From Chitinophaga pinensis (GTDB lineage: Bacteria > Bacteroidota > Bacteroidia > NS11-12g > UBA9320): a DNA stretch of 33,401 nucleotides. Positions 21,147-23,326 of the stretch are shown one piece after another. The DNA lies in assembly GCA_945889315.1 (NCBI GenBank), contig CAMDBP010000020.1, forward strand, positions 1 to 33,401, written 5' to 3'. Under the pieces are notes generated by a model. That model did not search any database. It had not been told where the DNA came from and saw only the letters and a list, made by a program, of their open reading frames with translations. Positions within the stretch are counted from its first letter, which is position 1. Every line of letters starts with the position of its first letter. A program made the translations under genes and the position numbers.

Positions 21147-21192
21147 TTACTTTAAACACTCGCTAAGTTAACTTAGCGAGTGTTTAAAGTAA
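21147..21192. repeat. 46-bp perfect palindrome downstream of pyrG (terminator-like hairpin lacking a U tract)
   Basis: TTACTTTAAACACTCGCTAAGTT / AACTTAGCGAGTGTTTAAAGTAA, perfect inverted repeat centred between 21169 and 21170. Confidence 0.9.
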
Positions 21193-21279: not shown

Positions 21280-21287
21280 TACCTTTG
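21280..21287 (+). promoter_or_regulatory. -7 element TACCTTTG of the DEAD-box helicase gene
   Basis: TACCTTTG at 21280-21287, immediately before the structured leader. Confidence 0.6.
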
Positions 21288-21298
21288 CACCTAATTTT

Positions 21299-21364
21299 AG
21301 CAGCGGAGCACCACTGTCGTGAATTAAATTACCCCGTCGGGTAAGGAGAATGTGCTCTATTGCT
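21299..21364 (+). ncRNA. Putative cis-regulatory three-way-junction RNA in the 5' UTR of the DEAD-box helicase
   Basis: P1: AGCA (21299-21302)/TGCT (21361-21364) and GAGCAC (21306-21311)/GTGCTC (21352-21357); P2: CAC-TGTC-GTG (21312-21321); P3: TTACCC-CGTC-GGGTAA (21329-21344). Confidence 0.6.
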
Positions 21365-21382
21365 ATACTAAACATATAGAAA

Positions 21383-23326
21383 ATGAGTACATTCAAAGAA
21401 ATGGGTCTAAAATCGGAGATTTTAGAGGCCATACTAGAGCTTGGTTATGAAAAACCTACGCCTATTCAAGAAATTGCAATACCAAAAGTATTGGAATCTA
21501 AACAAGATTTAATCGCATTTGCACAAACAGGTACAGGTAAAACTGCTGCTTTTAGTTTGCCCATTCTTAATCAAATTGACACCTCTAAAAGAGGAGTCAA
21601 ATGCATTGTATTAAGCCCTACACGTGAGCTTGGTCTACAAATTACAGCAGACATCGAATCCTACAGTAAAAACATTCCTGGATTTAAAGTAGTAGCGGTA
21701 TATGGTGGAGCAGATATCATGGGTCAAATCAAGAAATTAGAAAGAGGTTGTGATATCGTTGTTGGTACACCCGGAAGAACTCTAGATTTGGTAAAAAGAA
21801 ACAAACTAGACCTAGAAACTGTAGAATTTCTTGTATTAGACGAGGCAGACGAAATGCTAAGTATGGGATTTGCCGAAGATTTAGATGCCATCCTAGGAAA
21901 TACCCCTAAGGATAAGCAAACCCTTCTTTTCTCTGCTACCATGCCGCCAGACATGCTTAAGTTGAGCAAGAAATACATGACCGATCCCTTCGAGATATCG
22001 GCAGGTAGTAAACAAGAAACAAATACAAACGTAACCCACCAATACTATAAAATAAATTCAAGAGACCGTTACCCTGCGCTTAAAAGAGCAGTGGATATCG
22101 CTCCGGATATTTATGGTATTATTTTCTGTAGAACCCGAGCGGAAACTAAAGAAGTAGCAGAACGACTTGCAGAAGACGGTTATAACACCGATGCATTGCA
22201 CGGCGACTTATCACAAGCGCAACGTGATTATGTAATGAACAGATTCCGTAATCGTCAGTTGCAATTGCTTATTGCTACAGACGTAGCAGCTCGTGGACTA
22301 GATGTAAACGAACTTACACACGTAATAAACTATAAATTACCTGACGAAGATGCCGTTTATGTGCATAGAAGTGGAAGAACAGGAAGAGCTAATAACGAAG
22401 GATATTCTATCTCTCTGCTTACCGCCAAAGAAGAAAGTAGACTTCGTTATTTAGAGAAAAAAATAGGTCGTAAGTTTGAAAAAGTTCCTATTCCTAACGG
22501 TAAAGACATCTGCCAAAAGCAATTATTCAATCTTATCGATAATATAAAAGAAACTGAAATAGCCAATAGCCATATCGATAGTTTCTTACCTCAGATTTAT
22601 GAAATGTTTGAGGATATGACTAAGGAAGAAGTATTAAAAAAAATAGTATCTGCTGAGTTTAATCGATTCTTAGAATACTACAGAGATGCGCCAGACTTAA
22701 ATAAAACTTCTGACCCAAGAGAAAGAGAAAGAAGTCGTGAACTAGAAAACGATAGAGACGACGACAGAGGTGGTCGAAGAGAAAGGCCTGAGCGAGGAGA
22801 AAGAAGAGACCGAGATAGAGGCGAAAGATCTGAACGAAGCGAGCGCAAAGAGCACACAACTGCTTCAAATATGACGCGTTACTTTATTAATCAAGGTAAA
22901 AAAGATGGATTCAGCCCAAAATTATTGATGGGTATGATCAACAGTAACTTAGGTGGTGCTACACCTGAAATTGGTCAAATTGAAATTATGAAAATGTTCT
23001 CTTTCTTTGAAATGGAAAGTGGCCACACTGCCGATTTACAACGTGCCGCTAAAGACATGGAGTTTAATGGTAGAGAAATATCTATAGAAGAAAGTTCACC
23101 TCGCCCAAGCGGTGTTGGAGACCGTGGATCAGATCGTGGAGACCGAGGTGGAAGCCGTGATGGTGGCGGATACAGAGGTGGAGAGCGAAGTGGAAGTCGT
23201 GAAGGCGGTGGTTACAAAGGTGGTGACCGAAGTGGAAGTCGTGATGCCCGACCACGTGAAAGTGCTCCTAGAAGCAGCCAAAGACCTGCGGGAAGTCATG
23301 GCGCTAAACGCAGAACTAGAAGATAA
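21383..23326 (+). CDS. DEAD-box ATP-dependent RNA helicase (DeaD/CsdA-like, with DbpA-type RNA-binding domain)
   Basis: FAQTGTGKTAAFSLPIL, SPTRELGLQI, VLDEADEML, LLFSATMP, ARGLDVNELTHVINYKLP, HRSGRTGRA; C-terminal RBD-like region and RGG tail. Confidence 0.93.
   Translation: MSTFKEMGLKSEILEAILELGYEKPTPIQEIAIPKVLESKQDLIAFAQTGTGKTAAFSLPILNQIDTSKRGVKCIVLSPTRELGLQITADIESYSKNIPGFKVVAVYGGADIMGQIKKLERGCDIVVGTPGRTLDLVKRNKLDLETVEFLVLDEADEMLSMGFAEDLDAILGNTPKDKQTLLFSATMPPDMLKLSKKYMTDPFEISAGSKQETNTNVTHQYYKINSRDRYPALKRAVDIAPDIYGIIFCRTRAETKEVAERLAEDGYNTDALHGDLSQAQRDYVMNRFRNRQLQLLIATDVAARGLDVNELTHVINYKLPDEDAVYVHRSGRTGRANNEGYSISLLTAKEESRLRYLEKKIGRKFEKVPIPNGKDICQKQLFNLIDNIKETEIANSHIDSFLPQIYEMFEDMTKEEVLKKIVSAEFNRFLEYYRDAPDLNKTSDPRERERSRELENDRDDDRGGRRERPERGERRDRDRGERSERSERKEHTTASNMTRYFINQGKKDGFSPKLLMGMINSNLGGATPEIGQIEIMKMFSFFEMESGHTADLQRAAKDMEFNGREISIEESSPRPSGVGDRGSDRGDRGGSRDGGGYRGGERSGSREGGGYKGGDRSGSRDARPRESAPRSSQRPAGSHGAKRRTRR

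Follow-up and report, generated by a model that had tools for sequence, protein, structure and literature searches.

The defining feature of the 5' UTR of the DEAD-box RNA helicase gene in the window (the whole 33,401-nt stretch of DNA analysed here) is, in our folding calculations, a pair of mutually exclusive folds and not a three-way junction. The two computed helices, P1 and P4, share a strand, one of them lies over the start site, and this arrangement is maintained in all 15 leaders of the genus. The element is a structured, probably autoregulatory helicase leader that is restricted to one clade. That the 5' UTR and the first codons together form a bistable co-transcriptional switch for translation of the helicase gene, with feedback through refolding, is a reading to which we would give an even chance.

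The leader element and its conservation

The window is part of a 2.1-Mb MAG whose closest relatives among public genomes are uncultured Bacteroidia/Bacteroidetes MAGs. Much of the original prediction, which described a junction of three helices (P1, P2 and P3), is borne out at the level of the letters: the strand sequences and positions are as described, including the -7 element TACCTTTG at 21280-21287, the outer and inner strands of P1 and the purine stretch GGAGAAU (at 21345-21351), and the element closes some 17-19 nt ahead of the ATG at 21383 (Table 1). The 98 nt from 21288 to 21385 have a minimum free energy (MFE) of -24.8 kcal/mol against a mean of -16.7 for shuffled sequences (z -2.80), with 3 of the 200 shuffles as good. 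The junction itself fared less well. It is the MFE fold of a sequence cut off at the ATG, but not when 20-60 nt of coding sequence are included and one strand pairs with the start-codon region. As a defining feature it does not hold either: P1 is real and occurs in 15/15 same-genus leaders, but P2 is complete in just two near-identical leaders, those of the window and its nearest relative, and is broken in the other five leaders of type A, and P3, though present in the window, is missing from the eight leaders of type B, about half of the genus. The UGUC loop of P2, together with the PF03880 domain of the protein, had suggested that the leader might carry a mimic of hairpin 92 (H92) of the 23S RNA that the DbpA-type RNA-binding domain would recognise; this candidate was dropped because P2 is not conserved.

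Table 1. Positions of the helicase gene, its promoter element and the elements of its leader in the window.
Feature	Position	Strand	Remarks
TAnnTTTG (-7 type) promoter element, TACCTTTG	21280..21287	+	15/15 same-genus leaders have it 9-11 nt ahead of P1; TACCTTCG in one
P1 5' arm, UAGCAGCGGAGCAC	21298..21311	+	open state: pairs with 21352-21365
P2', alternative hairpin of the 5' arm, GCAG.GG-AGCA-CC.CUGU	21300..21317	+	forms when P1 is open
P2 of the original prediction, CAC-UGUC-GUG	21312..21321	+	not conserved: broken in L003-L006 and L008
P3 hairpin, UUACCC-CGUC-GGGUAA	21329..21344	+	type-A leaders only; stem sequence differs, forms in 7/7 type-A; none in type B
GUCG motif	21336..21339	+	15/15 same-genus leaders and L068 have GUC; L005 is the only one without the full GUCG
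P4 5' strand, GAAUGUGCUC	21348..21357	+	pairs with 21385-21394
P1 3' arm (switching strand), GUGCUCUAUUGCUA	21352..21365	+	common, in part, to P1 and P4
P4 inner hairpin, CUAUA-CUAAACA-UAUAG	21363..21379	+	compensated as CUUAAA/UUUAAG in L008
P4 3' strand, GAGUACAUUC, G of AUG and codons 2-4	21385..21394	+	codons 2 (AGT) and 3 (ACA) invariant in 15/15
DEAD-box RNA helicase gene, 647 aa, C-terminal DbpA RNA-binding domain	21383..23326	+	PF00270, PF00271 and PF03880, all above cut-off

Our same-genus set comprises 15 genomes, the window's own included, whose leaders were found by a DNA search of relatives. The common plan is TACCTT(T/C)G, 9-11 nt, UAGCA-NNN-GAGCA ... UGCUC-NNU-UGCUA, 15-21 nt and the ATG; the outer stem shows a few single-base variants. 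Searched with a covariance model of P1, each genome has one strong copy (62-69 bits), which lies at the helicase, and no other of that strength. A conserved cis-acting RNA ahead of this gene is well supported: one copy in each of 15/15 genomes, always in the same place. The element is kept in every same-genus genome in which the 5' end of the helicase gene is assembled, even where the upstream neighbour differs. Four further genomes are not countable as losses: the contig of G003 ends within pyrG, the helicase gene of G013 is cut at a contig end, and G004 and G016, in which no helicase was found, are both less than 75% complete. The leaders fall into two types. Type A (the window and six others) has the inserted P3, with a stem that varies by species and a loop that keeps GUC; type B (eight leaders) is without P3 and keeps GUCG. 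In the protein tree, type B minus L010 is a supported group, and L008 is placed as sister to L001-L003.

Compensatory changes are present, in small numbers. P1 has one, in L008, where UAGCA/UGCUA has become AAGCA/UGCUU (UA to AU); P4 has two pairs and the type-B form of P2' one. In the sister genus (G027, leader L068) the arrangement is GUUAAAAC-GAGC-GAGC-UCUGG...GUCG...GUGCUC-CGG-GUUUUAAC, so that the outer stem has been swapped for a perfect 8-bp GUUAAAAC/GUUUUAAC while the GAGC-UCUGG-GUCG-GCUC core is retained. These comparisons of related leaders support a structured RNA conserved by selection, with modest covariation that draws on few independent changes in one genus and one outgroup. Upstream of orthologous helicases the structure is conserved in the genus and the sister genus, and the element is absent beyond. 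The covariance model did not find it in the other genera of the family, and, beyond the genus, a set of 296 genomes of the class yielded nothing except one weak match (G168). On inspection the weak matches at L046, L050 and G168 look like chance, the last lying inside a coding frame. No family of Rfam 15, Bacteroidota motifs included, reached its gathering cut-off in the whole window or in 18 homologous or orthologous loci, and permissive thresholds gave chance matches only (E > 1).

Two sequences are conserved across the leaders, GUC(G) and UCUGG/CUG, and the second is accounted for by the alternative hairpin P2' described below. The GUC lies in the P3 loop of type-A leaders and is unpaired in the core P1 fold of type B. 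In the 16 homologous leaders we found no pairing partner or function for GUCG, which has no role in the switch model; it could be a contact for a protein or an RNA. It is also the one specific pointer to the ligand binding that had been suggested for this leader.

The upstream neighbour of the helicase gene is pyrG, and a perfect 46-nt palindrome (21147-21192; 23-nt arms, no spacer) lies between it and the helicase promoter. This is probably a terminator. The relatives G018 and G012 have diverged versions of it, and in G012 the arms have changed yet are still complementary.

Competing folds at the start codon

With coding sequence in the calculation, the 3' arm of P1 gains a second partner, the start codon and codons 2-4, for which most leaders quit P1. 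With 60 nt of coding sequence at 15 C, P4 is favoured over P1 by 5.4 to 12.3 kcal/mol in 15/15 leaders; with 20-40 nt, the type-B leaders L007 and L009 are near balance between the two. In every leader the 3' arm is more complementary to the start region than in 1000 dinucleotide shuffles (p 0 to 0.014 per leader in 15/15, these being related leaders and not independent tests). A global count of switching bases is likewise higher than in shuffles in 13/15 leaders (p <= 0.033), with L007 and L009 scoring 0; significance is not reached in the sister genus (p 0.13) or in another genus, g3 (p 0.05 to 1.0).

The pairing in P4 is well maintained. In type A, 98.1% of cells are paired, where slid versions reach 51% at most, and two pairs have changed on both sides, a covariation score that 12 of 500 shuffles equalled. 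The end pair is A-U in L004-L006, G-U in L008 and G-C in L001-L003; here the synonymous codons TTC and TTT at position 4 of the protein vary in step with G or A at 21348 in the leader. The A to U change of L008 at 21365, in the strand common to both folds, is matched in P1 (21298) and again in P4 (21377). In type B, UGCUCAUUU pairs with AAAUGAG..CA over a 2-nt bulge, with 95% of cells paired as against at most 54% for slid versions, and no two-sided change occurs among the eight leaders. The 5' arm released from P1 has a partner of its own in P2', for which 100% of cells are paired in the seven type-A leaders and also in type B, where it takes the form C(G/A)GA-GCAN-UC(U/C)G with AU, GU or GC at one pair. 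Most of the conserved CCACUGU of type A and UCUGG of type B can thus be put down to the pairing of P2'.

The start of the helicase gene is conserved at the codon level as well. Codons 2 and 3 are the only invariant codons in 160 columns with invariant Ser, Thr, Gly, Ala, Leu, Val or Pro. When Arg is counted, 4 of 185 codons are invariant in the helicase gene (the extra two being Arg AGA), versus 0 of 192 in pyrG and 0 of 140 in the adjacent E2 gene. The start-proximal codons of pyrG are fairly conserved too (ACA in 14/16), and the invariance of codons 2-3 may in part reflect general selection on start regions.

As to the order of folding, P1 is predicted at 15 C to be practically the only fold (near 1.00) until about +3 from the A of the AUG, with L004 leaving it slightly earlier, and P4 takes over (near 1.00) by about +11 in all type-A and most type-B leaders. 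Path searches from P1 to the full-length structure give barriers of about 10-20 kcal/mol, a range that covers only the leaders ending in P4 and leaves out L007 and L009, whose end state is not P4. The P1-P4 equilibrium changes little from 5 to 25 C and P4 is usually more favoured in the cold, so that over this range we found no shift in the inducing direction such as an RNA thermometer or cold-shock leader would have. All these values come from energy models, which are at their weakest for multiloops and at low temperatures.

Proposed mechanism and rival explanations

To our knowledge, a few models aside, little is known of the means by which bacterial DEAD-box helicases adjust their own level, and this compact leader of about 90 nt offers a concrete two-state design for such control. 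P1 would form first and would be the sole fold until about the time the AUG is transcribed. When roughly the first 10 nt of coding sequence are out, the 3' arm would move to P4 and the released 5' arm would close as P2'. P1, with the start codon free, would be permissive for translation, and P4, with the start codon covered, would be blocked; as Bacteroidota generally do without Shine-Dalgarno initiation, pairing of the start codon is a natural control point. The open state would be metastable, and a high barrier would have to be crossed to reach the closed one. Cold slows such refolding and RNA helicases speed it up, so the mRNA would stay open when helicase is scarce or the temperature drops, and would close when helicase is plentiful. 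The most economical sensor would be the refolding itself, with the encoded protein as the refolding factor, and the outcome would be a negative feedback that reads RNA-refolding capacity, plus cold induction, with no need for a ligand. Such a switch would probably respond to its own helicase and to cold; its trigger and regulatory sign, and with them the autoregulation and cold response of the leader, are what we infer from the predicted folds. If the helicase does drive its own leader from open to closed, the leader would report directly, at the molecular level, on RNA-remodelling activity. One study describes refolding between competing RNA structures as strongly temperature-dependent and chaperone-assisted (PMC8565331).

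Other explanations have to be weighed against this one. Either P1 (with P3) is part of a switch or it is simply a 5'-terminal structure that protects from decay or binds a protein or ligand, the complementarity in P4 being incidental. The latter would suit the start of P1 just 9-11 nt past the TTTG box in every leader, the GUC that is kept in 16/16 leaders with or without P3, as expected of a binding site, and the preference for P1 of some type-B leaders with short coding sequence. We nevertheless consider it unlikely, given that the end pair of P4 co-varies with a synonymous codon change, that codons 2-3 are invariant, that the complementarity beats shuffles in 15/15 leaders and that P2' is maintained. 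A DNA-level dyad, serving as operator for a transcription factor, would also place an interrupted inverted repeat (the P1 arms) just 3' of the promoter. This seems hardly credible when the spacing of the arms differs by almost 20 nt, when changes are compensatory and when the partner strand reaches into codons 2-4.

The two remaining rivals accept both folds and differ in what moves the leader between them. In an equilibrium RNA thermometer, or cspA-like cold-shock leader, temperature alone would shift P1 against P4 and the helicase would not be the reader. DEAD-box helicases are commonly cold-induced and two alternative folds do exist around the start codon, but with a balance that barely moves from 5 to 25 C and mostly tips towards P4 in the cold, opposite to cold induction, such a device is improbable. 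Alternatively the sign could be the reverse, with P4 as a ground state from which the leader is opened by the helicase or by some other unwinding factor; expression would then be under positive feedback or would depend on unwinding. P4 is the predicted thermodynamic ground state in nearly all leaders, and DeaD-type helicases can unwind leaders and thereby activate translation. Positive feedback is, however, less expected for a housekeeping helicase, and the maintained P2' fits a one-way displacement of P1 by P4; we regard this reversal as quite improbable.

The proposed refolding switch has several relatives among known systems. The E. coli cspA 5' UTR is a cold-shock thermosensor whose alternative folds expose or hide the translation start, and it too belongs to a cold-related RNA-remodelling protein; however, it is much longer and heads a different gene, whereas in the window's leader it is the start codon and codons 2-4 that the switching strand captures, and the predicted equilibrium does not lie on the open side in the cold. 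E. coli rne and deaD are autoregulated via their own 5' UTRs, mainly through RNA decay. As in our proposal, an RNA-processing enzyme or helicase is controlled via its own leader (here, the autoregulation is what we infer), the difference being that reliance on decay. Feedback on rne is mentioned in PMC10989929. In Synechocystis, expression of the RNA helicase gene crhR responds both to temperature and to the CrhR protein, at the transcriptional and the post-transcriptional level; whether the involvement is direct or indirect is left open there, and the text searched contains no 5' UTR structure (PMC3485376). Both crhR and the window's gene encode RNA helicases, and on this comparison only the window side has a defined, computed two-state RNA; we claim no relation in sequence. 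Translational riboswitch platforms resemble P1/P4 in that their helices exclude one another and one strand has either an upstream arm or the ribosome-binding region as its partner, but in the window's leader no aptamer, ligand, Shine-Dalgarno sequestration or Rfam match was identified.

Helicase leaders in other lineages

In the sister-genus leader L068 the same change of fold is predicted at +1 to +3, where AUGUGC and GCAUAU form a helix that covers the AUG. Genus g3 (L069-L072) has another structured leader, in which a 5' GAACG/CGUUC hairpin is set against GUUCGUU/AACGAAC just ahead of the AUG; the competing fold is strong in two of the four leaders and near balance in the other two. These g3 leaders also carry a conserved GCAC....GUGC hairpin. 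As parallels to the switch in other genera, the modelled L068 and g3 cases are suggestive only. A broader reading would make the leader a cis-encoded sensor of RNA-refolding capacity that starts out in a metastable open fold, its own helicase speeding and cold slowing the collapse to the closed fold and so setting translation, with the same logic perhaps at work, on unrelated sequence, in the sister genus and in g3; this more general view strikes us as doubtful. Elsewhere, the orthologous helicase gene is near-leaderless in one genus of another family of the order, and in genus g4 its leader is A/T-rich and unstructured.

In the Sphingobacteriaceae (L097-L148; Mucilaginibacter, Pedobacter, Daejeonella, Parapedobacter and relatives), 45/45 leaders have a hairpin NNNNC-(RAUNNN)-GNNNN within about 41 nt upstream of the ATG of the orthologous helicase gene. 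Its stem covaries strongly (UCAGC/GCUGA, UUGGC/GCCAA, CCGGC/GCCGG, AAAGC/GCUUU, CCAAC/GUUGG and others), and the start of its RAU-type hexaloop is conserved. The loci that we scanned gave no Rfam match for this hairpin, which is a candidate for a separate RNA motif. Finally, in genus g12 of family f2 (L160-L162 and L164) the helicase leader is about 76 nt long and has a conserved GGGG...UUCCCU with ACCCCGC downstream, possibly another leader with competing helices.
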